This document shows, piece after piece, positions 3,569 through 62,864 of a stretch of 64,000 bases of DNA; position 1 is the stretch's first letter; each line of letters opens with the position of its first letter. Origin of the DNA: Amphibalanus amphitrite. Lineage: Eukaryota; Arthropoda; Thecostraca; Balanomorpha; Balanidae. A program made the translations under genes and the position numbers. The DNA lies in the NCBI RefSeq assembly GCF_019059575.1, contig NW_024881786.1, positions 124,001-188,000 of the forward strand, written 5' to 3'. The notes under the pieces were generated by a model. It was given only the letters and a program-made list of their open reading frames with translations. It was not told the origin of the DNA and ran no database searches.

Positions 3569-4487
3569 CCCTCGCCCATGTAGGGGGGGGGGGTTGGTGC
3601 AACCTCCCCCCCCCCCTGAGGTTTTTCTTAGCTACACGCCGAACCGTTTCAGATAGCCTGCTCAAATTTTCAGTACCCTCTGGGACATCCTTTGCGCAAC
3701 TTTTGGTATTTTTTTGTCAAGGTCATGTCAGGTCACGGAGTTATGACGTCATAAAGGGAACAACCTCCGGCCAGATTTACGCTAAATTGGAGATTGCTTC
3801 ACATTGGTATAAATGCCGACTGACCTGACACACTGATGGATTGTTTTAGAATCACAACTGGCTGATTTGACATTGGCACAATGTCCGTTGACATTTTGAA
3901 GGTCACTAAAGGTCAAGGTAAGGTCAGTGACCTCGGTTGACCTGTAATGACTTCTTGTACTTGTATGCCTTTTCGGGGTATTTTGATGCCCTGAATTCGA
4001 ATTTGTTATCCATTTCAGGCATCGTTGGTTGTTTCTTGTAGTTCATTTTGGGTCAGGGTCAGGTCAGTGACGTCACACGCCTGACGTGACCCAATGCACA
4101 AATGACCTTGCAGACTTCCGATGCTCCCAACGCATCATTTGTAGAGTTATGACATCGAAATACACACCAAACGATAGAGAATTGATCAAGGATCACGATA
4201 GTGAAGGTTTCAAGTCAATATCTCTTACCGTTTTGCCGCAATCGGTGCGGAAATCTGAAAAAGTTAGATTTTTCCGAAAATTTGACCTTTGACCGGTCAT
4301 AAGTAGGTGAAATGTTGACCTAGGACCAATAAATATACCACCAATCGCGAGATCTCGTTGAGAGCAATCTGTTGGTGTTTTCCGCTAAGCTCTACGATGC
4401 TCCGTTTTCAAACGCCAGGGGGGGGGGTCGCACCAACCCCCCCCCCTGCATGGACGAAGGTGGCAAAACACCGTTTACGGGCGAGGG
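3569..4487. mobile_element. TTAA element copy 1 (CCCTCGCC family), 919 bp
   Basis: It is bounded by TTAA at 3565-3568 and 4488-4491, and both ends read CCCTCGCCC inward. TTAA duplication with termini starting CCC is the hallmark of piggyBac-type elements. There is no transposase frame, so this would be a non-autonomous member. Just inside each end lies a G-run, short palindromic core, C-run hairpin (about 3582-3616 and 4420-4446). The interior has TGACGTCA at 3744-3751 and AGGTCA half-sites. These form a DR4 at 3900-3915 and a perfect IR1 (AGGTCAGTGACCT) at 3921-3933. Copy 2 at 4963-5883 lies in the opposite orientation. Naming the superfamily is inference from ends and target. Confidence 0.8.
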
Positions 4488-4962
4488 TTAAATGTCTTAT
4501 TGATTTTCTTCATAGGTATGTTACACAATTGATTATAAAACCATTCTTGAATGCCGTGTATTCTGAATATTCAGTGAGCGTAAACAACCTACCCGGCCAA
4601 GGCACATTGGTTAAATAAAGTGCACACATTTGTAGCGAGAAGTCACGCATTGTAGCCCTCCTACCCAGTGCGGTAGCCGAACTGGGCCCGCGGTTCCCGG
4701 AAGGACTGGTCAGTGGTCACTGGTCAGTATTCAGCAGTCAGTCAGTGGTCAGTGGTCAGTGGTCAGTGGTCACTGGTCACTAGTCACTGGTCAGTGATCA
4801 CTGGCTCACTGGCTACCTCAGAGGGGAGACCGTCGCCGCGCCTGTCAGCACTCATCCGTCCCGTGTCAGTTGTCTGCCCTGCCGGGTGTCAACTGTCTGC
4901 TCTGCCGGGTGTCAGCTCTGTCCCCCGCCCGGTGTCAGTAGCGGCGGAACACCTTCAATTAA
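4488..4962. repeat. Spacer between two TTAA elements, with GGTCAGT tandem tract
   Basis: This 475-bp spacer holds a degenerate 7-bp tandem tract of GGTCAGT / GGTCACT at about 4706-4815. After it come short repeats of the word GTGTCAG and CTGCCGGGTGTC (4864-4940). No gene is visible. Confidence 0.7.
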
Positions 4963-5883
4963 CCCTCGCACGACCAGGCCATTTCTCATAACACGAACGA
5001 CCAGGGGGGGGGGGGTTGTTACGACCCCCCCTGGCGTTTCGAAACGGAAGGTCGTAGAGCTTAGCGGAAAAAACCAACGGATTGCTCTCAACGAGATCTC
5101 GCGATTGGTGGTATATTTTTTGGTCCTAGGTCAACATTTGACCTACTTATGACCGGTCAAAGGTCAAATTTTCCGAAAAAATCAAACTTTTTCAACTTTG
5201 CGCAACGATTGCGGCAAAACGGTGAGAGATATTAACTTCAAACCTTCAACAACGTATTCCCCACTCAATTCTGCATCATATACCATGTTGATGTTGTTGT
5301 TGATGGATGTTGGACCACTCATGACGTCATACCTCTCTAATCTGACATGACCCGGCCATTTTGTTTATTTCAAAAGTTAGTCAATAGATGTCCCAACATG
5401 TCTGGAAAGTTCTATTAGCATACATGCACTACTCCACATGCAATCGTAAAAAAGCTGGAGGCGCATTTATCAGACACTCACTTCTCAGAAATGGCGGCGT
5501 ACGCTGTACCTCTTATGACGTCATAACTCCGTGACCTGACCTGACCCGGTCAATTTTCTTGCACCACACGATAGCCAATGCTTGCCCCAACATGCATGGG
5601 AAGTTTCATCATGATCCATCAAACAATGTGGGTATCACCGGCAGAAAACCTAGGGATTCGGCGCACACGTTTGGTAACTGTCGGCCGGAGGCTGTACCTC
5701 TTATGACGTCATAACTCCGTGACCTGACATGACCCGATCAATTTTTTTTTCGGCAAAAGATGCGCAAAGGTTGCCCCAGAGGGTATTGAAAATTTCAGCC
5801 CGCTACGACAAGCCGTTTAGCGTGCACTTCGAAAAAACCTCAGGGGGGGGGGGGTTGATACAACCCCCCCAGGCGTTCTAGGG
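4963..5883. mobile_element. TTAA element copy 2 (CCCTCGCC family), 921 bp, inverted relative to copy 1
   Basis: TTAA at 4959-4962 and 5884-5887 flank termini CCCTCGCA and, read inward, CCCTAGAACGCC. Hairpin modules sit at about 5003-5032 and 5835-5868. The region after the left hairpin matches the complement of the right part of copy 1 (the stretch with GACCGGTCAAAGGTCAAA), so the two copies face opposite ways. Three TGACGTCA palindromes lie at 5322-5329, 5516-5523 and 5704-5711. No transposase frame is present. Confidence 0.8.
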
Positions 5884-5887
5884 TTAA

Positions 5888-6661
5888 GGGGAAGGGGGCT
5901 CTGCCGACTTTTGGTCCCATTCTTTCCATGCAACGCCCATAGGGCTAATGTTAAAATGGCAAAATCAAGGGGGGCACGGTGCCCCCCCCCCCCCTCCCCG
6001 TTCCGCCGCCTATACCCAGTGTCAGTTCTGTCACCTGTCCGGTGTCAGCTGTCAGCTGCCGTTGTCAGATGTCTGGTCTGCCGGTGTCGGGTGTCGCCTC
6101 GACCGGACCTCCCGGGCCGCGGCCGCAGAGCCCCTGTGTACAGACATGCTCGGTGCATGTGTAGCGGGCGGGGTGGGGCGGGACGGAGTGGTGTCGCCGT
6201 GCCCCTCCCCTCCCCTCCCCTCTCCTCCCCTGTCCTGTCCGGGGCCAGGGGTGCGGTCACCGCGCCCGCCCTGCCCGGCCGCTCCTTGATTTCTATGTGT
6301 TTGGACCCGCGTGCAATGTGACCCCGCCCATACTCAATTGCATTTTGCGTTAAGGGCGACTAATAACCAAAGTATCGACACCTGTATGCTCGTGAGCACA
6401 TCAAAGGCTACCACGCCGCACTCCTGGAAAATGCCCGCATGCAGTTGGCGACATTATTATTTCACTGAACCCGCGGTCTGCTCCCTTCTCCACTCGCTTC
6501 TGTTGGTTACTGGCTGCGATCAAAAAGAAAGTGAGCCAGGTTTTAGACAACACCACTTGAATTACATGTAGAAATGTAGAATTACCCCGAATGTAGAAAC
6601 CGATTCGGGGCCAATAGCAGCTGAAACCTTGGCAGTTATGACTGCCGCGGGCCACCATTCG
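5888..6661. other. Unique sequence with an isolated G/C hairpin
   Basis: A solitary hairpin GGGGGGCACGGTGCCCCCC sits at about 5969-5990. It has the same plan as the hairpins in the TTAA elements but no element ends around it that I can define. The rest is C-rich low-complexity DNA (6195-6245) and unique sequence with no gene recognised. Confidence 0.5.
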
Positions 6662-6836
6662 CCGTCCACCGTCCATGTCCACCGTCCACCGTCCACCGTC
6701 CACCGTCCACCGTCCGCCGTCCACCGTCCACCGTCCACCGTCCACCGTCCACCGTCCACCGTCCACCGTCCACCGTCCGCCGTCCACCGTCCACCGTCCA
6801 CCGTCCACCGTCCGCCGTCCACCGTCCACCGTCCAC
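6662..6836. repeat. 7-bp tandem repeat (CCGTCCA)n
   Basis: About 25 copies of a heptamer, with occasional CCGTCCG variants spaced regularly (higher-order pattern). Because 7 is not a multiple of 3, it opens frames on both strands. These frames are artefacts. Confidence 0.95.
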
Positions 6837-8035
6837 CCCCGGTCCACGGGGCCTGTCACGTGTCGGTCAAAGGGGTGGAGCGACCGGGCGTCCGGCTCCG
6901 AGCGCATGAATAACGCTGGCACGCCGTAAATTGTCCTCTGCAACAATGCTGACCTCATGCGGCCCGTGTCGGCGGCGATAGCCGAGATTCGGCCGCCCCG
7001 CCGCGGCCCGACACCGGCACTGCTGCTCTCTGCGGTCAGACGCGAGCAGACGATCTTGTTCCAGCTGTTAGTGGACATTGGCTAATTCCGGGGCGTCGAG
7101 GACGATTGGGAATGCACGATTCGGAATCCATTAACTTTCACTTGTGCACAATAGTGCAAGAACCTAAAATGATTCATTTGTTCTTAGGTTAGGTATCTAT
7201 TTGAAATTTGCTCTTACTTATGGCGGCATGTGCAATAAAACGTCTTTATTACTTGGCAGTTGGCTATGCATTAAACTGGACGTTGTGCTGATTGTGTTTT
7301 ACCGTCAATGCCCTTCCCCAAAATTTATATGGATTTTCTTGCATAGAAATGGTCGCAGCAGTGGACCGTGCGAAATATACGGCATAGATCTAACACATCA
7401 GGCATTTAACTCGTGCTTGGCTGGCGGGCTGAGCAATGTGCATACACAGCCCAATCTCATTTCTCTGCAATACGTTTTGAATCGGTCAACGTATCAACAC
7501 GAGACTTTCTTTACCTTCGGCTGCATCAATTTTACAGCTTATGGGCAAATAAACATTTCGTAACTCTGTGCTATAGGTCGGCCGGAAATGACGTCAGAAG
7601 GACGTCTTGTTCGGGAGTTATATTTTTTATTTCCTTTTTTCTTTTACTTGAAAATATTTCATAGAACAATCTACTGAAGAAGCTGTAGCCTGATAGGTAC
7701 CATCAGAAATGGCAAAGTTATGCGCATTTACATTGTTCCGTTGTCAACTCCTTGCCATTATTAATATTTCAGCTGCACTTTTCAGTGCGTTTTAGTAATT
7801 ACACACCAAAACAAACATCACCATCGTGCATGTATAGTTGAGCTCAAACTTAAACTAAAAGTACTTTTTGTTAAATAAAACAAGCTTCAAAATTCGACTT
7901 TTTTGCCTGCAAATCCGCGGTTTTGCAGGCATTTCAAAAAGGCAGCGCGGGTTTTAGCGCATTTTTCTGCACAACTTCAATTTATTTTGAAGTTCCGTCG
8001 ATTGATAAGAGTAAAAGTAGGTATGTATAAAAGTA
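6837..8035. other. AT-richer unique DNA with a fragment related to the right-hand TTAA elements
   Basis: A 120-residue open frame at 7201-7563 matches nothing I know and lacks coding character. The stretch 7572-7616 (GGTCGGCCGGAAATGACGTC and following) matches the complement of about 62665-62707 inside the TTAA element at 61689-62864 over roughly 45 bp. It is therefore probably a relic of that family. No host gene is recognised. Confidence 0.5.
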
Positions 8036-8049
8036 CAGTGTGTCCCAAA

Positions 8050-8731
8050 AATAATGTCACACCCTTCCAGCGTCAATTGCATGAAAATAACAAACATGAG
8101 AAGTGCGCTTTTCTTACATATGTATCCCACCTTCTCCCTGATACGGGCAAGCATACGGTCCGGGACATCAGACATCAACATGCCCAGCTTCTGTGGACTG
8201 ATCTTGGACCAGACAGTTCGAACGTTCCGGGTCAGCGTGCCTTCAGATTATGCTGGTGCCATTTTGTTCACCTCTTACCGGACGATCGCCCTAAAATTTT
8301 CTCTCGGCGACAGGCTAGGACTATTTCCCGGTCATTTGTCCTTCTCCCAGAATGCTGGGAAGTTCGATCTGGACCAGTCCTGCGTCGTTCTAGCTCGATG
8401 AGTCGGGGCGCCGACCCATCGAAAGATGACCCTGGACATGTTCAGCAGAAGTTCTCGGCTGGAGGGCTTCAGCTTTAGAGACAACCTCCGGTACCGATGG
8501 ATTGTCGACTTGGAGACTGCATGACTGTTGGCAACATCTTCCTTGTCAGTTTCCTTGTGGATAAACCCGTCTTTATCTCCGCACTTCGCAATGACGATCT
8601 GCGCTATACCCGGCTGGCGGAAGTATTCCTGCCGCGACCTAGCTTGTTCTCAGGCGTCTATCCGCTTCTGTCGCGTGTCAACCAGCGCCAAATCGTGCGG
8701 CAACTCACATGGGTGTAGAAACGTTTTCAAA
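8050..8731 (-). pseudogene. Broken Tc1/mariner transposase, DDE domain remnant
   Basis: Reading the minus strand from 8731 down gives a helix-turn-helix-like stretch ending SKSTIHRYRR. This is followed directly by a segment with GAPTHRARTTQDW, then SNFPAFWEKDK, a stop at 8332-8334 where a tryptophan is usual, PGNSPSLSPRENF, and a C-terminal tail RMLARIREKVGYI. In the family the QDGAPAH and WPxNSPDLxPIEN blocks carry the second and third catalytic acids. Here the second aspartate position is valine (WVGAPTH) and the glutamate of REN is kept. The gap between these two positions is 37 residues, as in DD37E-type members. The first catalytic aspartate region is missing. The gene cannot be active because of the internal deletion, the stop and the lost aspartate. 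The next element inserted at about 8732 cuts it from its 5' end. Confidence 0.75.
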
Positions 8732-9751: not shown

Positions 9752-9850
9752 TGGATGCGTGGTGAAGTGGTTAGCGCACTAACCTCGCGTTCAAATGACC
9801 CTGGGTTCGAATCCCATCGCCGGCTGATGCTTTTGGCGTGTTGTCCCAGC
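9752..9850 (+). mobile_element. tRNA-derived short interspersed element (head and short body)
   Basis: GTGGTGAAGTGGTTAGCGCA at 9759-9778 fits a tRNA D-arm / A-box. GGTTCGAATCC at 9804-9814 fits the T-arm / B-box of an RNA polymerase III promoter, at tRNA-like spacing. The segment between does not fold as a convincing anticodon arm and no terminal CCA or clean acceptor stem is seen. It reads better as a tRNA-derived element or pseudogene than as a working tRNA. A short body follows (TTTTGGCGTGTTGTCCCA). A truncated second copy of B-box plus body is at about 9872-9925. Confidence 0.65.
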
Positions 9851-9871
9851 ACACATGCCGACGTCGGCGAC

Positions 9872-9925
9872 TGGGGGCTCGAATCCCGCCGCCGGTTGAT
9901 ATTTTTGGCGCGTTGTCCCAATAAA
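9872..9925 (+). repeat. Truncated second copy of the tRNA-like element tail
   Basis: GGGCTCGAATCCCG (a degenerate B-box) is followed by CCGGTTGATATTTTTGGCGC and GTTGTCCCA. This repeats the body at 9814-9850 with a few changes. Between the two copies is a 19-bp piece of the surrounding GACGTCGG repeat (about 9850-9868). Confidence 0.6.
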
Positions 9926-10770: not shown

Positions 10771-12258
10771 CCTTGCATATTATATCAAAATTTGGACCGA
10801 ATTTGGAGTGAGAAGGGCTAAAATTAGTCTGGGCTTAAAACAGGCTAACTTTTATTTCATGCCAAAAGCAGCACATTCGGAAACCGTGAATGCTTATCTT
10901 GTGTCTACCAGCAGCAGTTTCGCGAATATCAATCCACTGCTAGATTGACGAACGTGCACGTTTCTGTAATGTTTAGACACCAATATCTTCTAAATAGAAA
11001 TTATTCACTTTTAAAATGTTATATACCTATAACAAAAAGGCAAGTAAATAAAGTCAAAATGAAGCCACTGCCAGCTTTTACAAAAATACAAAATACCAAA
11101 TGCATGAAAATTGTCTTTTCCTGATGAAGGAAAAACTTTCATATGGCGGGAACAACAAATTTGGTATCACTGCGCTATTGCAACGATTATGGCGCAGCCC
11201 ACTTATACACATGTGCTTCAGCTTTCAGGTCAACAATACATCATTCTTATTAAAAAAGAATTCTGGTTCATGAGTCCATAGTAGTATATCGTAGAGCCAA
11301 AGCACATGGAGAAGGTAATTGTGCCCTCCTGACTGTGAGGTTTGCTAAAAAATTGCTAAGTCATTCCCCACATCTCGTCGAATACTGCTGTTTGTCAGGC
11401 TGGGGTTGACACCAGAGCAGGTAAAAAACCAGCATCTTGAGGCATAATTCTTTTATAAATAAGAACCAGGGCAGTTGGACAATGATAAAGGCTTGAGCAA
11501 TAATAATCATTTTCATCATGCATATTGTGTAACTGTGATATCTAGTGGGTGCATGCTTCCATTAAATGCTTCATGCAGTTCTTGCTTACTGCTGATTAAA
11601 AATGAAATGCTCTTTGGATATTTTTCTGAATCTTTAAATGTGAAATATTTTTTCTGTAGACTTGCAGATTTTGGGGTGCTTCTGCCAGTGAGGGGTGCAT
11701 TTTTTGGCTCAGTGGGTGCTCGAGCACTCCCATACCTCCACCCCAATTATCCGCCTTTGTGGACTATGGAGAACCCATACTGATTTCTTCTGGCCTTTAA
11801 TCATATATTGCTTTTTTAACTTAAAGAAAAGTGCATGAGAAGTGTTATCACTTAAAGTTGGTGTGGAAAATCCACACCAACTTTCAAGTTGGTGTGGAGC
11901 TCTCCACACCAACCACATACGAAGTTACGCCCATGGCAACTCATGCCCAGTGCCTAGCGACTTGGCCGTGGGTCATGCTGCCGGCAACCCGCATGCCGAC
12001 TGCCCCGCTGTGGGACGATTTGCTCTGCAGTTTTGCCATCGGACACCTGGTCTGCGCGCGCTGGGTACTGCCCCGGAAATGACCACCGTACACCCCTTGA
12101 CCGGTCAGGGTCACACAAATTCGAAGATCACGTGACTAGAATGTAGCTAAGATGGTCTGGGAGCCAGTACCTACCGGCGAAATTATATTGATATTGCGCC
12201 GTAGAAGGCAAAATAAATGTTGTGGGAGGGCATGTGACATTAATTTTGGGACACCCTG

Positions 12259-12558
12259 TATATCTGGGAGCTTTGATATCGGTTACCTATAAGGTAAGGT
12301 CAATTTTGGGATCTTTCCGCTATAAAGAGAAAATTGAGTTGCGCTTCTTTGGGACAATGTCACAATAAACATTCTCAAACTGCATCAGGTTACAGGTAAA
12401 TATGGCCCATGGAATCAGAGTACTCACCCGTGACACCTCATGTCATTATGCTCTTGAGGTCATCTCAGGTCCTGAGATGTCTTCACCAGTTTCTTTTTTA
12501 CAGCTCTTGATAGTGACAGATAAGAGCGGTGAAAACACGTTTGGTGTGTACAGCTTAA
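12259..12558. other. Unique spacer, nothing recognised
   Basis: This stretch between the mariner end and the next TTAA element has a mixed composition. I see no coding signal or repeat ends in it. Confidence 0.5.
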
Positions 12559-13456
12559 CCCTCACCGGCACAGGCCATTCTGCGTCCTTCGACGGCACAA
12601 GGGGGGGGGGGGTGGTACGACCCCCTTCGCGTTTGGCCCCTGATCGAGCTAGAGCTTCGCGGAAAGAACGAGCTGTTGCCCGTCACGAAAGGAAGCCGAT
12701 GATACCAAATTTTAAAGTCCTAGGTCATCGGTTGACCTTCCAGGTCAGGTCAATGACCCAAAACTCGGGAAAATCGGGACCTGTTAGAAAGTCGTAAATT
12801 GTGGCTGTTATGGGTTCTTTTCGGTGTGCTGATCACGAATATCGTGTTAGTTTTGAGCACAGATGATGTATTTAAGCATTTAGACCAGGTTTGGTCAGGT
12901 CAGGTCAGGTCAACCTGTACGGGCGTGACGGGTATTCGTAGAACGTGTCAACCGCCTCTGACAGCTTTGTAAGATGTTAGGTACGAAGACACCAAAACTA
13001 CGTCGTTAATGTTCAAATGGTTGTTAAATTCGAATTCAGCTAAAAAAAAAACTAGCCTAGAAACATGTAAGACACAAACAAGTGAACCGAGGTCACCAAA
13101 GGTCATTGACCTGACCTGACCTTCAGGTGACCTTGAAATTCACCCTAATGCATGGGAGCAACATCAAATCACATGTTTGAACGCTTGAAACCACGAAAAG
13201 CTTGCAAACGCGCGGCTAATGCGAGCCGACATACGCCGAATCGCGTTTCCGGCCAAACATGGTCTCGGAAAATAGGTCACAGGTCAAAGGTCACTTAGGT
13301 CAGGGTCATGCAATTTTCAGGGTAGGTGTAGAATTAATCAACGTGAGAGTACTGAAAGTTTCGTTGCGATCGGCCGCTCTTTACGCGAGTTATTTGCGAA
13401 AAACCTTAGGGGGGGGGGGGTTGCATCAACCCCCTCCCTCCTTGTGCCGGCGAGGG
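12559..13456. mobile_element. TTAA element copy 3 (CCCTCRCCGGCACA subfamily), 898 bp
   Basis: TTAA at 12555-12558 and 13457-13460 flank ends CCCTCACCGGCACA and, inward from the right, CCCTCGCCGGCACA. Hairpin modules are at about 12600-12626 and 13409-13437. The interior carries a run of overlapping AGGTC repeats (12893-12912) and AGGTCA-CCAA-AGGTCA (DR4, 13090-13105) whose second half also forms an IR1 with TGACCT (to 13112). A double DR1 lies at 13274-13293. No transposase is encoded. Copy 4 at 15447-16336 is the same subfamily, inverted. Confidence 0.82.
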
Positions 13457-14090
13457 TTAATGATATGGATCGACTGATATGCAGCATGGCATTTTCCACC
13501 CAGGCAATGGCATTGACTGCAGATCAACGTTTCAAAATGACCTTCTGACTTGGTTAACCCTGGCGTTAATGGGTTAATGGGTTAACGTATAGTTCATTCG
13601 ACGCGGCTCAGCGAGAGGAATACGAGTCCAGTAAAACCTTTTTTTTAATTTAGTCCGAACCTTTTGCTAGGAAGGATTCACAAGGACAGAGCCACCGCTA
13701 AGCGAAGCTTGTTGCGGTGACACTGCCCTCTACCCTCCGATCGCGCAATTCCAGTTCTATGGCAGAATTTAGAGGCCAAAGCTTAACGTGCGCACATAGC
13801 CGCGCACGGCCAATATGCAAGTTTTTAAGTCAATACTTAATGCAAAAAAATACTTTTTTTTATAAAAATGTACATTCTAAGCTTGTCCTCTGGAGGCTAC
13901 ATCGTTGACCTTAGGACCAATATGAGAAAATTACCCAGAAAGAGCTTTCAAAGACTTATTGAATGCGCTTTTCTGCGTTGCTGTGGAGCTCTAATCGTTC
14001 CCCGAGTTATGTGCCTATTTGCCAAAGAAAAAAATGAAATAAGCAAAATTTGACCTTTGATGATCTCTGTTGACCTGAACTGTGACCTAA
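13457..14090. other. Unique AT-richer DNA with a short TTAACCC / GGGTTAA palindrome
   Basis: At 13553-13586 the words TTAACCCTGG and repeated TGGGTTAA lie within 34 bp. This could be a collapsed relic of a TTAA element. The rest shows no gene. Confidence 0.4.
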
Positions 14091-14642: not shown

Positions 14643-16634
14643 GGGGAAGCCAGGGGAAGCCCGGCATAGTAAGCTCTTTTTCATTTTTATTACATACCAT
14701 AAGTGCTGTATAAAATGTTGATATCCTGTTAGCTAGCTAAGTTCATTGGCCGTGTTTTCCCAAAAATTCGGTTTCGTGGAATAAGTATAAGGTTGAGAAA
14801 ATCGAGTTTTAAAAAAGTGTTGATTTTTCTGGGGTAAGCCCGGCATAGGGGTAACGCCGGCCACCTCCCCAGCGCTTTACAACGAGTTGATGAAACCATT
14901 ATGTGTCTTACAAACATTAACGGAAAGTGAAATATTAAGGTACTGATTAGCTCTGGACATCTTAGAGTTTATGTCACTACTGGTATTTTAGCTGGCGTCT
15001 ACCACATATACAGTACAGGTCGATGAAAATCGTGATGCAAAATTGACAAAAAATGTGTATTTCAAAATTCCTTAAAATTTATTTTTCTTTTTACCTTAAT
15101 GCATCATATTGCATATCATACGACTCGGCTGATGAAGAAGAACACAACGACACCATTTTTGAAGCTCTAGCTTCATTGTCTGTCGCGTTATCTGCAAAAA
15201 CGTAGTTTGACCCTAGTTGACCTTAAGTGACATGACTGGCTTTGTCTATGATAACATGTTTATTTTCGAAATTTATCTTTGATCTAGGTGTAAACCAATC
15301 CTGCTCAGTACCTATTATCTCATGGAAAACAGTGGTTTAGTGGCATTGCTCTCGGTTGGGGGTAAGCTTGGCCACTCGCCCGGGGTAACCGCAATGTGCT
15401 AATTTTTATTTTAGAACAGCGATATTCGAAAAAATGTCATACTTAACCCTCGCCGGCACAGGGGGTTGATGCAACCCCCCCTCCTAAGGTTTTTCGCGAA
15501 TAACTCGCGTAAAAAGCGGCCGATCGCGACGAAACTTTCAGTACCCTCGCATTGATCAATTTTACACGTTCTCTGAAAATTTCATGACCCTGACCCCAAT
15601 GACCTTTGACCTGTGACCTCTTTTCCGTGACCATGTTTGGCCGAAATCGCGATTTGGCGTATGTCGGCTCGCATTAGCCGCGCGTTTTGCAAGCTTTTCG
15701 TGGTTTCAAACGTTCAAACATGTGATTTGATGTTGCTCCCATACATTAGGGTGGGTGTCAAGGTCACCTGAAGGTCAGGTCAGGTCATTGACCTTTGGTG
15801 ACCTCGGGTGACCTCGGTTCACTTTTTCGAGTTTTACATGTTTCTAGGCTAGTTTTTGGAGCTGAATTCGAATTTAGCAGCCATTTGAACATTTACGAAG
15901 TAGTTTTGGTGCCTTCGTAACATGTTACGAAGCTGTCAGAGGCGGTTGACACGTATTACGAATACCCGTCACAACCCCTACCGGTTGACCTGACCTGACC
16001 TGACCCGACCTGGACTAAATGCTTAAAAACATCATCTCTGATCAAAACTAACACGATATTCGTGATCAGCACCCCGGAAAACCACATAGCAGCCACACTT
16101 TACGACTTTCTAACAGGTCCCGATTTTCCCGGTTTTCGGGTCATTGACCTGACCTGGAAGGTCACCCGATGACCTGGGACCTTAAAATTGGGTATCATCG
16201 GCTTCCTCTCGTGACGGGCAACACGCTCGTTTTTTCTGCGAAGCTCTAGCTCGATCAGGGGCCAAACGCGAGGGGGGGTCGTACCCCCCCCCCCTTGTGC
16301 CGTCGAAGGACGCGAAATGGCCTGTGCCGGCGAGGGTTAAGCCAGCCTGCCTCGTCACCCCTCACTACAAACACTTAAACGGTCCTTACATAACATTCGT
16401 ATAAATATTAGTGCTGTATGGTATAACATTAACAGTGCAACATATCTCACTTTTTAGCTAAAAACCCTTAAAATATCATTTTTGCGGTATAACTTTAACA
16501 ATATGCAATTTTTGTTAGCCTTAACTTTTTGCTGGCGTTACCTTAGCTGCCACGCTGAAAGGACAAACAGTTGAGCATTTTATTGTGAATAATTTAGCCG
16601 GAAACGGGGTGGCCGGGCTTCCCCCGACTTCCTC
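14643..16634. mobile_element. TA-flanked TIR element, 1992 bp including a nested copy
   Basis: The left end is GGGGAAGCCAGGGGAAGCCC followed by GGC. The right end read inward is GAGGAAGTCGGGGGAAGCCC then GGC, 20 of 23 matching. TA lies at both borders (14641-14642, 16635-16636). Related words GGGGTAAGCCCGGC and GGGGTAACGCCGG recur inside at 14831-14866 and near 15358. TTAA element copy 4 (890 bp) is nested in it, leaving about 1.1 kb of its own AT-rich, non-coding sequence. TA flanks suggest a Tc1/mariner-like mechanism, but this is weak evidence. Confidence 0.6.
15447..16336. mobile_element. TTAA element copy 4 (CCCTCGCCGGCACA subfamily), 890 bp, inverted relative to copy 3
   Basis: TTAA at 15443-15446 and 16337-16340 flank inverted ends CCCTCGCCGGCACAGG. 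Hairpins are at about 15463-15482 and 16270-16295. Its right part is the complement of the left part of copy 3. Two DR1s in series (TGACCT spaced by one base, three times) lie at 15600-15619, matching the mirrored site of copy 3. It sits inside the 14643-16634 element, so it is younger than that insertion. Confidence 0.82.
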
Positions 16635-17091: not shown

Positions 17092-17143
17092 TTAAGCAAA
17101 ATAATTCCAGCAGGCGGCTATTTTTCTGTTGGTAAAACTGGCC

Positions 17144-20475: not shown

Positions 20476-20526
20476 ACAGAAGGGCGTATACAACTCGACT
20501 GCGGCCCTCAGACGCCTTCCTCGGTA

Positions 20527-28735: not shown

Positions 28736-29197
28736 CTCACTGGAGAGGACTAAGTGCTTCCAAAACGCTGACCCTCCCAGAACAAGCCGCCAAAACGCCG
28801 AGGAGGAGAAGGGAGACTAGGCGGGGGATGCCCTTTTAGACCTCTCCTTCCTTAAGAAGGAGGCGAGGAAGAACTGTCGGGGCGGTATGTCGGACCGATG
28901 ATGCCGGTTTGTCGCGCTGATGTCGGGCTGATGTCGGCGCGCGGAGGCTGGTCTGTCAGCCGGCCGGATGCAGCACCCACCGGCCGGCCGTCGGTCCGCG
29001 TCGCCGCGCAGGCGCCGCCGGCGGCTCGATGCTATCAGCTGATTCACGCGCGCCGGTGTCGCGGCGATCGGCCGCGTCGCGCGCCGTTAGATAAATCGGC
29101 GGCGGCGGTTAGTGTCGACCCGACCGAGGTGGACACGCCAGCCGGCCTTTTATATGGAGATGGTCCGGAGGTCGCGGCCGCACGAGCGACGGCCGCA
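28736..29197. other. CpG-dense unique DNA
   Basis: No domain, RNA or repeat end is recognised here. Confidence 0.4.
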
Positions 29198-29790
29198 CGA
29201 GGAGCCGGTACGCCACGGCACGGCCGGACGAGGGGCCGGTACGCCACGGCCCGGCCGGACGAGGGACCGGTACGCCACAGCACGGCCGGACGAGGGGCCG
29301 GTACGCCACAGCACGGCCGGACGAGGGGCCGGTACGCCACAGCACGGCCGGACGAGGGACCGGTACGCCACAGCACGGCCGGACGAGGGGCCGGTACGCC
29401 ACAGCACGGCCGGACGAGGGGCCGGTACGCCACAGCACGGACGGACGAGGGACCGGTACGCCACGGCCCGGCCGGACGAGGGGCCGGTACGCCACAGCAC
29501 GGACGGACGAGGGGCCGGTACGGCTCGGCGGCGGACGGACGAGGGGCCGGTACGGCTCGGCGGGGGACGGACGGAGGCCGGTACGCCTCGGCGGCGGACG
29601 GACGGAGGCCGGTACGCCTCGGCGGGGGACGGACGGAGGCCGGTACGGCTCGGCGGGGGACGGACGGAGGCCGGTACGGCTCGGCGGGGGACGGACGGAG
29701 GCCGGTACGACTCGGCGGGGGACGGACGGAGGCCGGTACGCCACGGCGGCGGACGGACGAGGGGCCCGTACGCCACGGCGGCGGACGGAC
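29198..29790. repeat. 31-bp minisatellite, about 19 copies in two variants
   Basis: Each unit begins GGTACGCCACAGCACGG or, in the second half, GGTACGGCTCGGCGG, and contains GGACGGACGAGGGGCC-like words. Since 31 is not a multiple of 3, the array runs through all three frames in turn and stays open on both strands for 200-300 codons. There is a sharp switch of variant at about 29510-29570. Confidence 0.93.
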
Positions 29791-31272: not shown

Positions 31273-31417
31273 CCACCGTTTCCATCCCGTTCAGCCGCGC
31301 TGAGCTCAACCGAACATCTGTAGTGAGCTTCCATGCCAATCAGTGGTCTGTGGCTGGGGGGCAGAGGCTCCCAGTCAGGGAGAGACGGCAGTCTGTCCCT
31401 GACTCCCAGACTGCCGT

Positions 31418-32105
31418 CTGTGGGGGAGCAGAGGCCCTCCGTCTCTGTGAGTGCCGTCTGTGGAGTGTGGGGAGCAGAGGCCCTCCGTCTCTGTGACTGT
31501 CGTCTGTGGGGAGCAGAGACCCTCCGTCTCTGTGACTGCCGTCTGTGGGGAGCAGAGGCCCTCCGTCTCTGTGACTGCCGTCTGTGGGGAGCAGAGGCCC
31601 TCCGTCTCTGTGACTCGTCTGTGGGGAGCAGAGGCCCTCCGTCTCTGTGACTGCCGTCTGTGGGGAGCAGAGGCCCTCCGTCTCTGTGACTGCCGTCTGT
31701 GGAGTGTGGGGAGCAGAGGCCCTCCGTCTCTGTGACTGTCGTCTGTGGAGTGTGGGGAGCAGAGGCCCTCCGTCTCTGTGACTGCCGTCTGTGGGGAGCA
31801 GAGGCCCTCCGTCTCTGTGAGTGCCGTCTGTGGAGTGTGGGGAGCAGAGGCCCTCCGTCTCTGTGACTGTCGTCTGTGGGGAGCAGAGACCCTCCGTCTC
31901 TGTGACTGCCGTCTGTGGGGAGCAGAGGCCCTCCGTCTCTGTGACTGCCGTCTGTGGGGAGCAGAGGCCCTCCGTCTCTGTGACTCGTCTGTGGGGAGCA
32001 GAGGCCCTCCGTCTCTGTGACTGCCGTCTGTGGGGAGCAGAGGCCCTCCGTCTCTGTGACTGCCGTCTGTGGGGAGCAGAGGCCCTCCGTCTCTGTGACT
32101 GCCGT
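31418..32105. repeat. 39-bp minisatellite (13-codon period) with larger duplicated blocks
   Basis: Units contain CTGCCGTCTGTGGGGAGCAG and AGGCCCTCCGTCTCTGTGA. Some carry an extra GAGTGTG, which breaks the 39-bp phase. A block of several units (about 31440-31680) is repeated almost exactly at about 31815-32045, so there is a higher-order duplication. The minus strand is open through this array and, via a unique segment, through the neighbouring 50-bp array (476 codons in total). Confidence 0.93.
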
Positions 32106-32734
32106 CCGCGGCGACCGGCGCCTGCTGATCGCCGCTATCTGGCCGCCCTGGCACGGAATGCCGTGCACGTGTCCGCCGGTACCGGATGGCGGTGCTTGGA
32201 CGACTTTACGGGCCGGCGACGGCTGCGCTCATTTGCGGCCGTAACAAAGTGTCAAATAATCAGCTAGTGGGGCCGTTAATCTCCAATTCGGCCGGCTGAA
32301 CGGCAAGCGGCCGCAGCCCGCTGTCCGCTGCACGTCTTCATAGTGCGGCTGTCGTGCTCCGGCGGCCATTCCGGGCCCGTCTCCGGGCTGAGCTACGGGC
32401 CGTTACGCCTCCGGACGACTCCGTAAACAATCAGTTATCTGTGATATTCTGTCCCCGCAACACGCCTTGTGGGCGTCCGCAGCTGCAACAAAATACCAAT
32501 GGAGCCTCTTGAATTTGCCAGCCTTAACGATGACGTGTATTGTGTGTACTAATTAGTTCATACTTCTCGGGAATACAGTTGTCTGTTTCAGCAGTATTCT
32601 TTACGCATTCTTTCCCGTGCCTTTATCGTTTGTTAAGTATTCAGTCCCTTGCCGTCTACCTAACTTTGTTCCGTGCAGTCTTTTCCTATTCATTCTAGTT
32701 CAACCTCCATCCCATTACGAGAACCACCGTCGTC
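32106..32734. other. Unique DNA, no gene recognised
   Basis: CpG-rich to 32.45 kb, then AT-richer. Nothing was found. Confidence 0.5.
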
Positions 32735-54516: not shown

Positions 54517-54518
54517 TA

Positions 54519-55510: not shown

Positions 55511-57569
55511 TAGTGATGTCAATTTCAGAAATTTTGGAAACCAATACCAAACCGATACCGACCAAAACCACTGAGAGTATACCAAAACCGAACCGATTTT
55601 CAGAAATAGGGGGAAATACCGACTAGATACCGAAATCAGGGAATTATCAAACAAATGCTTCAAACTTTCTCAAGACATATGATAACCCTTGAAAGGTACC
55701 TAATACTTTGAAATAAGGTAACAAAAACAAATCAGGCAATCTGTTAATTATTTGCATTGCAAAAAAACATTTATAACTTATTTTGTAACTATTAACAAGC
55801 ATTCAGGTCAGTTATTTTACTGGAATGTGGATTCAAGTCAACTGCATGAGGTGTTAGGAAAATAATTTGAACCCTGAATCTTGTCCATGCCTGAACCATC
55901 AAACCTTCTTTCAATTCAAGTCATTCATTTCGAGTCCGGTCAAGACAGGGTTAGGTGTGTTATCATGATCCAAAAGTGGTGACCCAATTGACTTTAACCC
56001 GGTTTACATAGCATATTTGACGAGGCTCTAGCTCGTTAATTTGGCGATAATTTCGATGCAGTGGTCTTCAAATATTTAGAGGGGAACATTTTGTAAGTTG
56101 TTAAGCACCAATGGCATCTTTTGCAACATCACGGACGGAGATATAAGCTTGCAACAAACCCTATGTAAACCGGGTTAATGATGGGCTACACTTTGGGCTG
56201 GCTACACCATTAATGTAAACAAAGCCCATGATACCTACAGTTAAACCCAAGTAGCATGGTGATTGGTGACGATACTGACGCAGCCAATTTTTCTTCATAA
56301 ACAAATGTGTAACACAACAAAACTTGATAAATAATTACTTACGAGGCACACTGATAGATAGCAGACACCACTGTAATGATATCGCGATGAATTCTAAGTA
56401 AAATGTCCATAATTTTACGGAAGCATTGACAGACGTCACGTGTCATCTCTTCCATAATGGCGGCCTTACAGGCGGCGGCCATTTGCATTAATGATTAAAC
56501 TGTATAAAATAAAGTTTTTCTTTTCTTTTTTGCTTAAGTCCACTTAAATCAAAATTCCTTGTATAAATTTTGACATCTTAAAATTAATTCAAGAAAGTTG
56601 TAGGCCGCTTTTGCTGAAACATGAAGCACCAGAAGGACATAGTTGTTCAATTATTTTCAATTAATTATTGAGCTATATCGGCTCCTCAACCTGGCGCAGC
56701 TGCGACATTGAAATGTTTTTAGATGTGTTCAGTTTTGAAACTGCTGTGTGCGAGTCAAGCCAAAAGCCAATCATATTTTATAAGTGCTTATGATAAAATT
56801 GCTAGCGATCTGCATCTGTTGAGAGAGCAGGAAAGAGAACACTAATTGAAGAAAATAAATTATCCACAGGATCATGACAGCATCGCTCACTACAAGGCTT
56901 TTTGAAGTTCAGCGAAGTTGAAGATTTGTGGGGTGATGCGGGTGACGATGAAGTGACAAATGCTGCCTTAAATATTTGATGATAATGGTGAAGCTAGTGC
57001 TGTATTAAACAGGGTTTTGGATAACGTAATTGCATTGCAGTAAAATGGAGAGGAAGACAAGGTCAAGATCAATCACAGACTCCTCAAAACAAAGTCAAAT
57101 TTGTTGCTAATAAATGCTTTGGAAATTTTGAGAAAGGTAGTTTAAGTATGTTTTCCAGCATACAGTGAGTTAAACATTAATTCATGTTTATGTCTTGCAC
57201 ATTGGCTTTCTTTGTAGGATAATTATCCTCATGGTATTGGAATTTGCTAACACTGATAAGTTGCCATTTAACATTGGTAGACTGAATGTATTTGATGTTA
57301 CAGTTGATGTGATTGCCCATTTGTTAGGACATCATGCATTTGGGAGAAATGTGTCATGATTGCCATTTTTCTTCATCCAGTGTCATTTAGCAAAATCAAA
57401 TTTGAGTTCAGAAGGTTTATCAAAAATGCTTTCAAATATTTTATGACAGTAGTTGATTTTCATGATACCGACAAAATACCAAATACTTTTGGTATATAAT
57501 ACCGAATACCGAATCGGTATTGGTTCGGTATCGGTATACCGAAATTTTGGTAACCGATTGACACCACTA
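55511..57569. mobile_element. hAT-type element, 2059 bp, probably non-autonomous
   Basis: The left end TAGTGATGTCAAT and the right end (complement) TAGTGGTGTCAAT are flanked by a perfect 8-bp duplication CTCTGAAA (55503-55510, 57570-57577). The first and last ~100 bp are built from ATACCAAACCGATACC-like words, like the 265-bp copy at 2808-3072. The ~1.8-kb interior is AT-rich, is broken by stops in every frame I checked by eye and shows no defined transposase domain. Position 55998-56174 is a nested TTAA element. It may be a decayed parent of the short copy. Confidence 0.78.
55998..56174. mobile_element. 177-bp TTAA miniature element nested in the hAT element
   Basis: TTAA at 55994-55997 and 56175-56178 flank ends CCCGGTTTACATAG and its complement, a 14-bp perfect inverted repeat. 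CCC at the ends next to TTAA fits a piggyBac-type target. It differs in sequence from the larger TTAA elements of this window. Confidence 0.78.
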
Positions 57570-57577
57570 CTCTGAAA

Positions 57578-59814
57578 CCCGCCGCCCCTCGGCGACAGGC
57601 CGCCGACTGGCCTATCAGCGCCCCGCGCGGGTCACACAGGAACAGGGGCTGCCCAGCGGCCATCACCTGGCGTGCATTAGCGCAGGGGGCGGCCCCGATT
57701 CAAAAAGTCGCTAATCCTGGCCGGGGCCGGCGCACAATGGACGGTCGTCCGGCCGTTCGCGGCGTGCTCAGTTGGGCAGAAGCGATGCGCGATATCCGGC
57801 CCTGGTCCCCGGCCGGCGCTCGATGGGGCTCTGTGATTGCCTGCGTCCGAGGGCTGGCCGTGTCCCCGCCGTGTCCCCGCCGTGTCCCCGCCGTGTCCCC
57901 GCCCCCCGGCGAGGGGTCGACAGGTAATTAGTGGACCATTTGTCGCTGTGTCGTGTCCGCGCCGCCCCCTCCCCCGCCCCCGCCCCCGCTCGCCGGCGGT
58001 CTTTGAAGCCGCTCAGACGGTGAACAGATCTATCTGTTGTCGGCCTGTTTTCCGGCAGAGCAATCGGCCCATTTTCCGGCACAGTGGGTTTGTGGGCGGC
58101 TGGCCTGATGGAAGGGTGACGGCCCGACGGACGGGGAGAGCTACCGGAGAGGAGGAGAGAGGGACGGACGGGTACCGCCGAGGGGGTGACGCGGTCCGCT
58201 GCAGAGCCGCCGGAGATACCGGACCCCGTCCCACCGGTCAGCCCGCGCCGGAGACAAACACGACCTCAGCTCAGTGGATGTGGCACTCGGCACTGTAGAA
58301 ATTAAAGGGAACATTGAACCATGCAGCGTCCCAGAAAACAGAACTCAGGCGGCACATTCCGCTCATGCAGAGTGTGGAAGAAAACGTACAAATTTGTAAA
58401 GGACCCAAGCGTCGCCTCTCAGGATGAAGATGGTGTCCAGCAAAAGCGACACCAAATGTTTCACAATTTAAATGCGTAAGATCGAAGATATTTCCTTTTA
58501 TTTGCCGATGCTATGTTGATACGTCTGACGGACAACCGGGACGTTGGCGCTGGTCGCGTGATGCTTTCTAAGAAAACTCATCCCTTAGGTGCTTCAATAG
58601 TTCTTAGGTACTTCCTTTGCATTGATTTACTACATGCTAGGTACTGAAGGTAATTGTGTGCAGGAAGATATTAAATATGGGTGTTGAAATAAAGATAGAT
58701 TTTAGCGTAGATAAGATAATGTTTCATTGTTCAAAGTGTCAGAAAAGCGAATTGGACTGTTCTAATTCAGCGCCGCACGGGGAGTTCGTCAGTACAGCCA
58801 GGCTACATGCGAACTGCGAATGCCAGCCCTCTGCCGTTGCGGGGCGAAACCGCCGCCCTGGCAGTTGCTGAGGTGACCCATCAGAGCCGGAGTGGCTCCG
58901 GGCTGTCCTCAGCTCACACTTCCACCGTCGCCCCCGAGTTACACACACGACTCCCACCGTCGCGTCGGACAGGCCGCGGGCACGGCGGTGATACCATCTG
59001 ACAAGGTCCGGCGACGGGTGTCCGCCACCGCGCCACGGCCGTAACCACGGCCGCAGCGTCTGGCTAATTACCGGCCGGCTGTTGGCGGCTGTCACGCGCG
59101 CAGCTCGCCGCCTTGGTGACACCTCCCCTCCACCGCAACACGTGTCGGAGGCGGTCACAAAGCCAGCCGTGGGCGGCGATATTGACTTGGTCGCCGGCCG
59201 CGGGCTGCAGCCAGGGCAGGCGGCGACCTCCCCGCTCCACGCGTCTGTCGGAGGGACTGACGGGTCTGCGCAGTCAACGGTCCGGGAACAGAAAGGGCTT
59301 CTGACCACTCAGCGCATTTCTGGGGTCACTAGGCGGCACAGTACCACTCCGAACTGCGATAGCCGACCTGAAAGCAGCAGTAGCCACCACGAGTTGCGGC
59401 CAGCCGGTCCCGAGCTGCGGCCAGCCCGGCCCGGCGGCGCGCTGTTTGCGCCCGGGATTATCAGCGGCCGGCTGGCTGCGTGTGCGCGCCGCCAAGGCCG
59501 TACTCTGCTCGGCAGAGTGGCGCCGGCCCCAGCCGCATAACTGCGGGGTAAATGGCGTGCACGCGCGCGGCGCGCCCGCTCCCAAATGGGACCAGTTGCA
59601 GGTAATTTGAGTGACAAGCGTGACTTAGCCAGTGTTGCAATGCCTTGCGCACTTTTTGACGAAGACGTGGTGCCTGTTAGCGCATTTTTCTTTCGCAAGG
59701 CTCATCATTAGAAAATGATTGGAACTAGATGGACGCGGTGCAGTCAATCAATTTCAGCCCGAGGTTAATGGCCTACTAAAACTTCACAGACACAGTAAAA
59801 ACGCATCAGCAATC
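57578..59814. other. CpG-dense unique DNA, no gene recognised
   Basis: A 12-bp tandem (CCGTGTCCCCGC) is at about 57858-57902. AT-richer 58.3-58.75 kb. Open frames on both strands are compositional. Confidence 0.45.
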
Positions 59815-59818
59815 TTAA

Positions 59819-60999
59819 CCCGCGCCCCGCTGGGGGGGGGGGGGCAGAATCTGCCCCCCTCCCGTTTTTCGCCAATAACTTCTAAACGCGTTACGCCAGC
59901 GACGTCAAACTTTCAGTACCTTATCATACATCAATTTGACACGTTCCCTGAAAATTTGAACGAAATCCGTCGGAAAATTTTTGAGAAATTGACGTTTTAG
60001 TGACGTCATGTTCGCCATTTTCGCCTCAAAAACGGCAAAATTTCAAACGCCGCTAACATCTTCATTTTTAAAGGAATCAAGACGTAACAAAAAGGTTATA
60101 CGTGATTCCACGTTGTCTATCAAATGGCTATCTCGGTTTTTTGAAAATTTTGGATTTTGGCCCAAAATTTTTCAAAAAATTGATTTTTTTGGGAAAATAG
60201 TTATAAAATCCAAAATTTTGAGTGTATCGAAAAAACCGGAATATATGTCAGAGAAGTGGTCAATGTGCATCTACATACCAATTTTCAGAAGAATCGGTTC
60301 AAAAATGTGGGAGTTATTCAAAATTTTATGACGTCACGACACAAAAAAATTTTGAAAAATGATTTTTTTGGAAGTTCTAGACCTCGTACGGAAACAAAAA
60401 TAGCACCATTCGATTTGCCGTGAAAAACTGCATCAGATAGACACCTTTTTGGGCCTTAACAACCAACTTCAAAATTTGACCTCACTTGACCTGACCTTGA
60501 CCTGACCTCGACCTGAAATTCATCCAGAGGTGGTCCATATCACTTATTGAGTGTGCCTATTGAATTCTATGAGTAAAATGAACCATAAAACATGTGTCGC
60601 ACATGCCCTCTTCTATATTTTGTTTTTGGTGACCTGACCTGACCTGACCTGACCTTGACCTTGACCTTTGAATGACATTGTATGCAACGAATATTGTCTT
60701 GGTAGTCTAAGAACACGTTTTGGGCAATCAGTCTCAGTCCATTCTTCGGCAACTACGGTGCAAGGCCGATACTGTAGAAACTTGCATTTTGTACCCTTGA
60801 CCTGACCTTGACCTGACCTCTGACCTACTTAAGCAAAAAATTTTGGGCTCTTAAGATCCGCCTTGTTGAGAGCTTTCGATTGCCGTTTTCCCCGTCTTTC
60901 TACGACCATCGGTTCGGAAGTTAGACAGGGGGGGCAGAATCTGCCCCCCCCCCCCCCCCAGCAGGGCGCGTATGGCTGAATAGCCCAGCGGGGCGCGGG
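59819..60999. mobile_element. TTAA element copy 5 (CCCGCGCCCC family), 1181 bp
   Basis: TTAA at 59815-59818 and 61000-61003 flank ends CCCGCGCCCCGCTGGG. The left hairpin has core CAGAATCTG between G- and C-runs (about 59831-59860). The right one has the same core at about 60927-60959, set deeper by an extra ~45 bp between end and hairpin. TGACGTCA lies at 60001-60008, with a related TGACGTCAC at 60329. Dense TGACCT half-sites lie at 60480-60530, 60632-60668 and 60797-60825. No transposase is encoded. Copy 6 next door is inverted. Confidence 0.8.
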
Positions 61000-61003
61000 T
61001 TAA

Positions 61004-61688
61004 TAGTTGTCCTTGACATAGTCTTCCCTAGTAATTGAAATCACTGGGACATGATTTATGAATCATCTCTGTTATAATAAGACTTGTCATCAGGTAAGGT
61101 GCACAGAACTAAATAGTTATCTGCAGGTACCAGAAACTTGTGATCATTTACTATGCGTATTATTGCTAAAAAGTAACGCAATTCTGCTACCATCGTAGCA
61201 TGCAACACACATGCCAGATAGAAGAACATGCGTTCGGATATTATCAAAATTTAAAGACGTATAATTGCAGTTAGACAGTCTTTGTTCGCCGAGGTGGTAA
61301 ACAATCAGCCATTTAATAAGTTAATCTCTGTCGCCATTGTTCTCTAAATATGATTGAAACGTTAGGCGATTATTACCACTCAACATTGTTCCAGGTCCCG
61401 ACCGTTTCATTAGGCATACAGGTAATATCTCATTTTGTTGCGGTATGCTCGAGTTGCAAAACGACACCCAGTGTCACTGGCTAACCATCAGCCGTGCTCG
61501 CAGCGCAGTCTACCTTCAGGCGTACTCACGGCACAGTCTATGTACGGCTCTCGCGAGATTAAGCGGTAGGTTTTGCACTTTTATATTTCCGGTTATATCT
61601 CAGAAACTAATCAATCTACGATGAAGCCATTTTACACGATCATGGCCGGCTTGTAAACCAACAAGTGGATCGCATCTTCAACACTTAA
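61004..61688. other. Spacer with two stray 34-bp repeat units and an inverted end
   Basis: CGCAGTCTACCTTCAGGCGT at 61502-61521 is the unit word of the minisatellite that resumes at 62955. At 61567-61582 CGGTAGGTTTTGCAC starts, and its complement GTGCAAAACCTACCG ends near 62932. The segment 61550-62945 therefore has inverted ends and encloses TTAA element copy 6. This suggests an element inserted in the minisatellite. Confidence 0.55.
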
Positions 61689-62864
61689 CCCGCGCCCCAC
61701 TGGGGTCTGCGTATAACACGCCCTACTGGGGGGGGGGGGGCTATTCATAGCCCCCTCCTAACTCCGAAAATACTGGGCCGATCGTCAAAATTCAAACGGT
61801 GTCTGATAGCCCCGGAAAAACTGTCGAGCGAAACCTAATTTCATTGACTTCGAGGTCACCGATGACGTCACAGGTCAGGTCAAAGTAAAAATTATTAGCA
61901 TTTTGGCTTCTTCACGTTTTGGGCTCTGGCCGCCGTCTTACAAGTCAGATCAGGCTCATTTTTGGTTCACACACTCGTGAACAGATTCTCTAGATACTCT
62001 GAGGGTACCAAACTTGTACTTTGATTTTCAGGTCAAGGTCAAGTCATCACAGGTCACGAAAATATTATATCATCCGTCGGTCACGTGACACATGTTTTAT
62101 GGTCCATTTAGGCCAAAAATTTCGAATTTGATGTCATCTGTGTCATTCGAGGTCATTTTGAGTCAAATTTAGCTTAGGTCAGGTCACTTTCAGGTCAAAA
62201 AAGGTCAAATTTTGAAGTTAAAATTTTTCAACAAAAAAGGTATCTATTGGATGCAGTTTGAGCTCAGGAACACGATGGTGCTATTTATATTGGCGTACGA
62301 TGTCAAAGTCGTGCTGAAAAATTGATTTGAAAAATTAATAATTGTTAATTTTTTGCAATAATGCGTATAACTTGGCCATTTTTGAAGATACTTAGCTAAA
62401 ACTGGCTAGAGCTAGTCATAATAATGCGTTCTATCACATATATTCCGTTTTTTTTAAGTAAAAAAAATGGAAAAAATGTAAAAAAAAATAAATTTTGAAT
62501 TTTATTATATAAAATTTTCGAAATTTTCAAAATTTCGAAAATCCGAGATAGCAGTTTGATAGCGCAGTCTATTCTGAGTCCTCTCATGCAAAGAAATTGG
62601 ATCTAGCTTAAAAACTGAGCTCTTGGGAGCGATTGCCGTGGTTCAATGTTTTGCGTCGAAATCGGCCGAACATGACGTCACTCTGACGTCATTTCCGGCC
62701 GACCTATGGTAAGTACGAAGTTGAAATTTCGACACAAGGTGTCAAATTGATGCAGCCGAAGGTACTGAAAGTTTGGCGTCGATACGTCAAGCGGTTTGGA
62801 CGTTATTGCAGAAAAACGGGAGGGGGGCTGTAAATAGCCCCCCCCCCCCCCAGTGGGGCGCGGG
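61689..62864. mobile_element. TTAA element copy 6 (CCCGCGCCCC family), 1176 bp, inverted relative to copy 5
   Basis: TTAA at 61685-61688 and 62865-62868 flank ends CCCGCGCCCCACTGGGG. Hairpin cores are CTATTCATAG on the left (about 61728-61755, set deeper) and CTGTAAATAG on the right (about 62821-62850). The compact end is on the right, opposite to copy 5. CRE palindromes are at 61863-61870, 62673-62680 and 62684-62691. AGGTCA sites cluster at 61852-61890 and 62030-62060. No transposase is encoded. Confidence 0.8.

Follow-up and report, generated by a model that had tools for sequence, protein, structure and literature searches.

The window analysed here is a 64 kb stretch of the Amphibalanus amphitrite genome (G000:C289:124001-188000, in a genome assembly of 807.6 Mb), which contains six elements that are bounded by TTAA and carry a symmetric sequence near both ends. 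Coordinates are window positions, element bounds include both copies of TTAA, and elements are named by their first position (Table 1). In all six, the bounds read TTAACCC...GGGTTAA. The terminus TTAACCC, which corresponds to the CC[CT] motif of piggyBac with its terminal inverted repeats (TIRs), is found at all 12 ends, and each element has the TTAA flank on both sides that piggyBac requires. A preliminary description of this window had reported a run of G, a palindromic or near-palindromic core and a run of C at both ends of the six elements. This arrangement, here referred to as the dyad, was confirmed at 12/12 ends. Most cores are self-complementary, as had been stated, but several are imperfect: elements 3565 and 4959 have TTG facing CGA at their long ends, the long-end cores of 12555 and 15443 are worn, and the short end of 61685 has the imperfect core CTATTTACAG. 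The six elements represent five families, with 12555 and 15443 belonging to the same family (inverted, 88% identity). According to sequence comparison, 61685 is related to 59815, and 15443 and 59815 have about 110 bp at 75% in common, just internal to the short-end dyad. Because their longest stop-to-stop frames span only 65-112 amino acids (aa), the six elements are taken as non-coding.

Table 1. TTAA-bounded elements of the 64 kb window and the location of their dyads. The strand is that of the orientation of the autonomous element described in the text.
Feature	Position	Strand	Short end (dyad)	Long end (dyad)
Predicted non-autonomous piggyBac element	3565..4491	+	left (3583-3616)	right (4418-4446)
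Non-autonomous piggyBac element	4959..5887	-	right (5843-5870)	left (5004-5031)
Non-autonomous element, GGCACA family	12555..13460	-	right (13409-13434)	left (12601-12625)
Non-autonomous element, GGCACA family	15443..16340	+	left (15461-15481)	right (16272-16294)
Non-autonomous element, CCGCTG family	59815..61003	+	left (59832-59859)	right (60928-60959)
Non-autonomous element, CCACTG family	61685..62868	-	right (62822-62851)	left (61728-61755)

The affiliation to piggyBac, which had been suggested together with a search for an autonomous relative that has the same ends, could be substantiated for the 4959 family. A search of the genome with the profile PF13843 resulted in at least 116 scored matches, and an autonomous element of 3,971 bp was located at C527:290214-294184. 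Its left end is the short end and its right end the long end of element 4959-5887, dyads included. Its right 325 bp align with window positions 4959-5282 at 99.7% identity, and positions 353-929 of element 4959 match its left end at 85-92%, with internal repeats. Element 3565 is also related, with 310 bp of its long end being 85% identical to the autonomous element. The open reading frame of the latter codes for a protein (P0001) of 646 aa, counted from the assumed ATG start. This transposase matches PF13843 (E 2.2e-69) and T. ni piggyBac (6x67, E 2e-78, residues 89-638, including the cysteine-rich domain, CRD), and more weakly piggyBat (9c0f, 3.2e-30). The zinc-binding pattern of the T. ni protein, CxxC-CxxC-CxxH-CxxC, is retained, and by sequence the protein is of the DDD type with a C-terminal CRD. 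Together with four further copies (on C44, C1173, C171, and C512), the C527 element shows 98-100% identity from upstream of the open reading frame to at most 1 base from the right end. Judged by these alignments, element 4959-5887 is an internally deleted derivative of an autonomous piggyBac, and the dyad thus belongs to the autonomous transposon. For the remaining families, affiliation to piggyBac is suggested by the shared ends. The C527 element shares its left TTAA (L075 815-818, near 290214) with the end of another copy of its family that adjoins it end to end.

The two ends of an element differ in layout. The short end consists of the tip, about 10-14 nt, and the dyad; at the long end, the inner tip motif is repeated before the dyad. 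This applies to 6/6 window elements and to the autonomous element. The best offset of this repeat is 26 bp in 61685 and 27 bp in the autonomous element and the other five window elements; matches extend to 7-11 of 13 bases versus 5-8 at assorted offsets in ten other ends tested. The short-end dyad is centred at bp 25 in 4959-5887, at 29 in the autonomous element, and at 30, 31, and 32 in 3565, 59815, and 12555, respectively. Centres of the long-end dyads are at 54.5-61 in the window elements and the autonomous element. The automatic dyad finder chose other palindromes at the left end of 15443 and the right end of 61685, where the dyads were located separately. Additional copies of the 15443 and 59815 families were fetched, these being the best matches to the window elements, which are themselves included; both TTAA were located in 27/30 and 22/30 fetched copies, respectively, and the other 11/60 were dropped. 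For these two families the median dyad centres are at 27.5 and 29.0 in short ends and at 57.5 and 57.0 in long ends, with a range over the 49 copies of bp 22.5-35 (short) and bp 52-64 (long).

A similar organization is found in T. ni piggyBac (IFP2, with ends LE35 and RE63), which likewise has a TTAA target, a short and a long end, an inner tip motif repeated at 27-28 bp, and a subterminal palindrome (PMC7351741). According to the available parts of that paper (Chen et al. 2020), bp 34-63 of the right end (RE) are almost identical to bp 7-35 of the left end (LE), from which we computed the offset of 27-28 bp, and a palindrome at LE bp 17-33 (centre 25) is bound as a duplex and bent by a CRD dimer. 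The palindrome is printed as TGCGTaAAATTgACGCA, corresponding to TGCGT-N7-ACGCA, in the consulted sections of PMC3459987. The barnacle dyads are thus near to the position of the T. ni palindrome, which is not a fixed position in our elements. In contrast to the barnacle series, the T. ni palindrome, as described there, lacks homopolymer runs, belongs to one element, and has a single distance to each tip.

Ends of this type are abundant in the genome. The pattern TTAACCC[GT]CGCC-N6-GGGG has 14,785 + 14,652 matches on the two strands, compared to 1 + 0 for the reversed control. In the forward rows among the matches listed, with one match per start, CCCC follows 5-28 nt past GGGG at 11,700 of the 14,785 starts; starts lacking CCCC are not all failures, because certain long ends carry GGGG immediately behind the tip motif. 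For the long-end pattern, in which the G-run is placed about 30-38 nt deeper, 15,381 forward matches were counted (control: 0). Reverse-strand counts of open-gap patterns (53,705 and 75,432) were not used because the same start is counted repeatedly. Doubling the forward long-end count gives a rough estimate of about 30,000 elements; with a length of about 1 kb, these would make up near 4% of the genome. A first look returned 7,140 candidates for the 15443 family and 4,688 for the 59815 family, and in each of them the best 40 copies scored, the window copy included, are 96-100% identical.

Between families, the cores show compensating change, as the preliminary description had proposed from the six window elements. 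We used 61 distinct short ends from contig C1, chosen by pattern only, and took one core for 11 of the 19 tags by which tip motifs are distinguished, adding the 4959 core. This set comprises 10 distinct arm pairs: TGT/ACA, TCG/CGA, CGG/CCG, TTG/CAA, CTA/TAG, CAG/CTG, CCA/TGG, and CCG/CGG, together with the imperfect pairs CTA/TTG and TCG/GGA. Pairing is observed at 28/30 arm positions versus a shuffle mean of 12.0, and 28 was reached by none of 20,000 shuffles, which treat families as independent although related families are not. With seven long-end cores added, there are 12 distinct pairs with 33/36 positions paired, versus 12/54 and 11/36 when the partner is slid by one position. Tag CGTATA is represented by TCGAACGGA (3/4 copies) and tag CCGTAG by one copy. 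Eight tags were omitted. Three of these are GGGCCG, which has the core of CTGCTG; CCGCTA, where the CAGAATCTG core is lengthened to the perfect ACAGAATCTGT; and GGCACG, which has the GGCACA core after an interrupted run. The others (CCCAAC, CGTAGA, GTGCTG, CTGCTT, and GGGCCA) are represented by one copy each, in which the core is broken, composite, or shortened; as parsed, 0/5 have all three outer positions paired. A G-run and a C-run flank the core in families with differing cores and at both ends of the autonomous element. The short end conforms to GGGGY-N7-RCCCC (17 bp, 5+7+5) in 9/12 families and has N8 in the other three. All 12 families have C or T as the outermost base of the core, G being precluded by the way in which cores were cut; one omitted single copy has A.

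Within families, the picture is different. Cores vary from family to family, and the short and the long end of an element have different cores, but copies of one family hardly differ: in the 22 copies of the 59815 family, 43/44 cores are unchanged, the 44th having a break in the G-run. All arm changes seen in the 27 copies of the 15443 family are one-sided. When the GGCACA family, to which 15443 belongs, was searched genome-wide with the tip motif fixed and for one arm pair, TTG..CAA was found 907 times, TTG..CGA 4 times, TCG..CAA once, and TCG..CGA not at all; the core TCG..CGA does exist behind another tip motif, CTGGCA. Thus, 907 copies are intact, 5 are changed on one side, and compensated changes number 0, so that the proposed compensation was not observed among copies of one family. 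Although this is a weak test, with five changed copies and one arm pair, we read the lack of compensation as a lack of selection for a stem in resident copies.

The lengths of the homopolymer runs differ widely among near-identical copies, and G-run and C-run lengths show no positive correlation (rho 0.10, -0.20, -0.43, and -0.40). In the first 100 listed of the 907 intact GGCACA-family ends, G-run length has modes at 6 (dyad centre at bp 25) and at about 11-13, a pattern in which runs below 5 are invisible and pure G is assumed. The variation is partly unexplained; slippage after insertion is the simplest cause, and the lengths could also reflect assembly or sequencing error. A shift of the dyad with age received no support from the comparison of divergence with dyad position (Spearman -0.38 with p 0.053, 0.21, 0.03, and 0.16). 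The folding of single strands, for which a prediction had been recommended, was better than that of nearly all dinucleotide shuffles at 11/12 ends (at most 8/200 shuffles fold as well), the exception being 12602-12632, where 57/200 do. A scan of the window against Rfam at gathering thresholds gave no match. The G-quadruplex modules that had also been envisaged were discarded: a canonical motif with four G-tracts and short loops is present at 1/14 ends and stems from a single 16-G run.

Matching ends were sought at 14 transposase loci (L001-L008 and L069-L074) and were found only for the C527 element (L072, completed by L075). Ends of type TTAACCCATTA are present on both sides of L001, L002, L005-L008, and L069, and on one side of L003 and L070. 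One end, TTAACCCAGGA, was found for L071, its other end not being found, and no such end lies within the fetched stretch of L004, L073, and L074. Besides the C527 transposase, the CRD pattern CxxC-CxxC-CxxH-CxxC occurs in L074; in the remaining 11 of 13 loci, the C-terminal pattern is different (by eye). The transposase of L074 (on C33; G000:C33:447800-450700) shares 37% identity with that of C527 over 572 aa, has the same CRD type, and has three matches in the genome with identical scores; it is a possible partner of another family of miniature inverted-repeat transposable elements (MITEs). Subterminal palindromes are recurrent in the piggyBacs of this genome but not universal. L001, which has TTAACCCATTA tips, carries at its left end the perfect 20-bp palindrome GTGTCCTCATATGAGGACAC, which is unrelated in sequence and has its centre at bp 24.5 (0/5,000 shuffles). 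In L071, TGGACA-TTTT-TGTCCA with 6-nt arms is also centred at bp 24.5 (57/20,000 shuffles), a palindrome that the general dyad finder did not pick. One of these piggyBacs (L002 595-3594) has integrated into a TTAA within a 12555-family MITE, and the flanks of this insertion (L002 481-598 and 3591-3640) overlap by 4 bp, the duplicated TTAA.

We consider it likely, with a probability of roughly 0.8, that the elements are internally deleted piggyBac transposons and that the dyad is a putative transposase-binding site, contacted by a CRD dimer. Transposases encoded elsewhere in the genome would move the elements in trans, and the CRD dimer would bind the subterminal dyad as a duplex. The half-sites would each be composed of an inner G or C tract and a core arm, the covarying core being the inner part of each. 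The inner tracts are probably parts of the half-sites because the 5+7+5 layout, found in 9/12 families, equals that of T. ni TGCGT-N7-ACGCA. Each burst of transposition would renew complementarity because the dimer is expected to bind symmetric sites only. After insertion, copies would decay and their runs would slip. Symmetry may thus be imposed at the birth of a new family, as expected of a dimer-binding site. Covariation between families, combined with rare and one-sided changes within them, fits a transposase-binding site better than a hairpin that is kept in resident copies.

The preliminary description had favoured such a hairpin, with the fold rather than the sequence being kept; the dyad would then be extruded as a hairpin or cruciform, and the transposase or host factors would recognize its fold. 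That self-complementarity is maintained while the core sequence differs between families, and that strong single-strand hairpins are predicted at 11/12 ends, is in line with this idea, which is already in print for subterminal repeats of piggyBac-like elements: the accessible text of a 2025 preprint (PMC12324416) states that such elements may have subterminal or inner inverted repeats, differing in sequence, and that those in human elements could theoretically form hairpins or cruciforms. In addition, the within-family test against it is based on 5 changed copies only. However, the core sequence is conserved in two families and the changes observed there are one-sided and uncompensated. The facing of TTG and CGA would place a T:G mismatch in a DNA hairpin, and this occurs in the cores at the long ends of 3565 and 4959, of the autonomous element, and of 16/27 copies of the 15443 family, whereas GGTTG and GGTCG can both serve as half-sites. 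In addition, the lengths of the G-run and the C-run show no positive correlation. The dyad lies near the palindrome of piggyBac that, in the structures reported in PMC7351741 as far as available, is bound by the transposase as a duplex. We thus regard an extruded hairpin as rather improbable, and the proposal that conservation acts on the fold and not on the sequence is not supported.

A slightly lower probability is assigned to the view that the runs are mere slippage-prone microsatellites beside a short core and that the G/C symmetry is functionless. The run lengths do vary widely between near-identical copies and the two lengths are uncorrelated or weakly negatively correlated, but both runs flank the core at 12/12 window ends, at both autonomous ends, and in families of differing cores, and the cores themselves covary. 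Kolobok elements duplicate TTAA as well, and assignment to this or another TTAA-inserting superfamily might therefore be considered. For the 4959 family, Kolobok is refuted by the autonomous element with the same ends, which encodes a piggyBac transposase (PF13843, 6x67); although the genome was not searched for Kolobok, we consider such an assignment very improbable.

Several observations weigh against the dyad being a CRD-binding site of internally deleted piggyBacs. At short ends, the distance from dyad to tip varies between 22.5 and 35 bp because G-run length varies (4 to 19), whereas a fixed geometry of the transpososome would predict a single distance. The long-end medians (57) exceed the value of 52-53 computed for T. 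ni, and there is no clustering of the least diverged copies at bp 25. The tip-motif repeat at the long end of 3565 (7/13) is indistinguishable from background. At bp 23.5-26, where the palindromes of L001 and L071 are centred, L002 has arms of 1-3 nt on either side, as do L005 on its left and L001 on its right; L069 on either side and L005 on its right show no more than AT-rich 5-nt arms. Finally, among the 14 transposase loci an own autonomous partner was found for the 4959 family and for none of the other families.

The preliminary description had regarded the modules as undescribed. Subterminal palindromes, including the hairpin idea, have already been described for the piggyBac group, with examples from T. 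ni piggyBac, MER85/PGBD3, piggyBat, and piggyBac-like elements in general in the sources as far as available. Human MER85/PGBD3, likewise a piggyBac element with an internal deletion, has a 16-bp palindrome located 3 bp inside the TIR, replacement of which cost 80% of transposase binding in vitro (PMC3459987); unlike the barnacle dyads, the palindrome (GTTCCAtTAtTGGAAC) is at one end only and without G/C runs, and the element is present in 889 copies. The piggyBat element of Myotis binds another palindrome, which is present 3x on the left end, with none recognized on the right, and its CRD has another topology (PMC11707139, in part). The coral CMITEs resemble the barnacle elements as piggyBac-related TTAA MITEs of multiple families with TIRs differing between families, but the portions of PMC2872659 at hand describe neither a subterminal dyad nor G/C runs. 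A literature search that included homopolymer runs, with subscription papers mostly outside its reach, retrieved no paper that, judged by its listing, reports palindromes flanked by G/C runs in piggyBac ends. New within the searches made are the G/C-clamped variant, its scale, the matched autonomous element, and the covariation series.

If the dyad is indeed a docking site, the barnacle genome would provide a natural series of such sites for piggyBac, with tens of thousands of ends, about ten different palindromes in equivalent position, and at least one matching open-frame transposase. The rules of CRD-DNA recognition and the evolution of transposase specificity could then be read from sequence. 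It would also show that what looks like a conspicuous "hairpin" in MITE ends can be a site for dimer binding, a useful point wherever such covariation is encountered. A more far-reaching scenario, which we consider unlikely though worth stating, is that one genome holds about ten versions of the piggyBac subterminal site, diverged by symmetric, matched half-site changes, with many CRDs having split into specificities that do not cross-react. Slippage of the G/C homopolymers in which the half-sites lie would shift them relative to the tip, and each inserted copy may thereby retire itself.

All six elements have dense GGTCA/TGACC repeats (e.g., at 12700-13300 and 60440-60830), with 101 copies in 6,033 bp and 207 in the remaining 57,967 bp of the window. 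There are 12-22 per element versus shuffle means of 1.6-1.9. Of the 101 copies, 80 read AGGTCA, the nuclear-receptor half-site. A literature search on these repeats, judged by its listing, found nothing. A further TTAA element of 185 bp (55994-56178) has the TIR TTAACCCGGTTTACATAG and is devoid of a G/C-clamped dyad. Tandem repeats are very abundant in the window (103 rows, partly overlapping; at 62951-63545, 31409-32106, 29181-29790, and others), one example being a 34-bp unit that is repeated 17 times.

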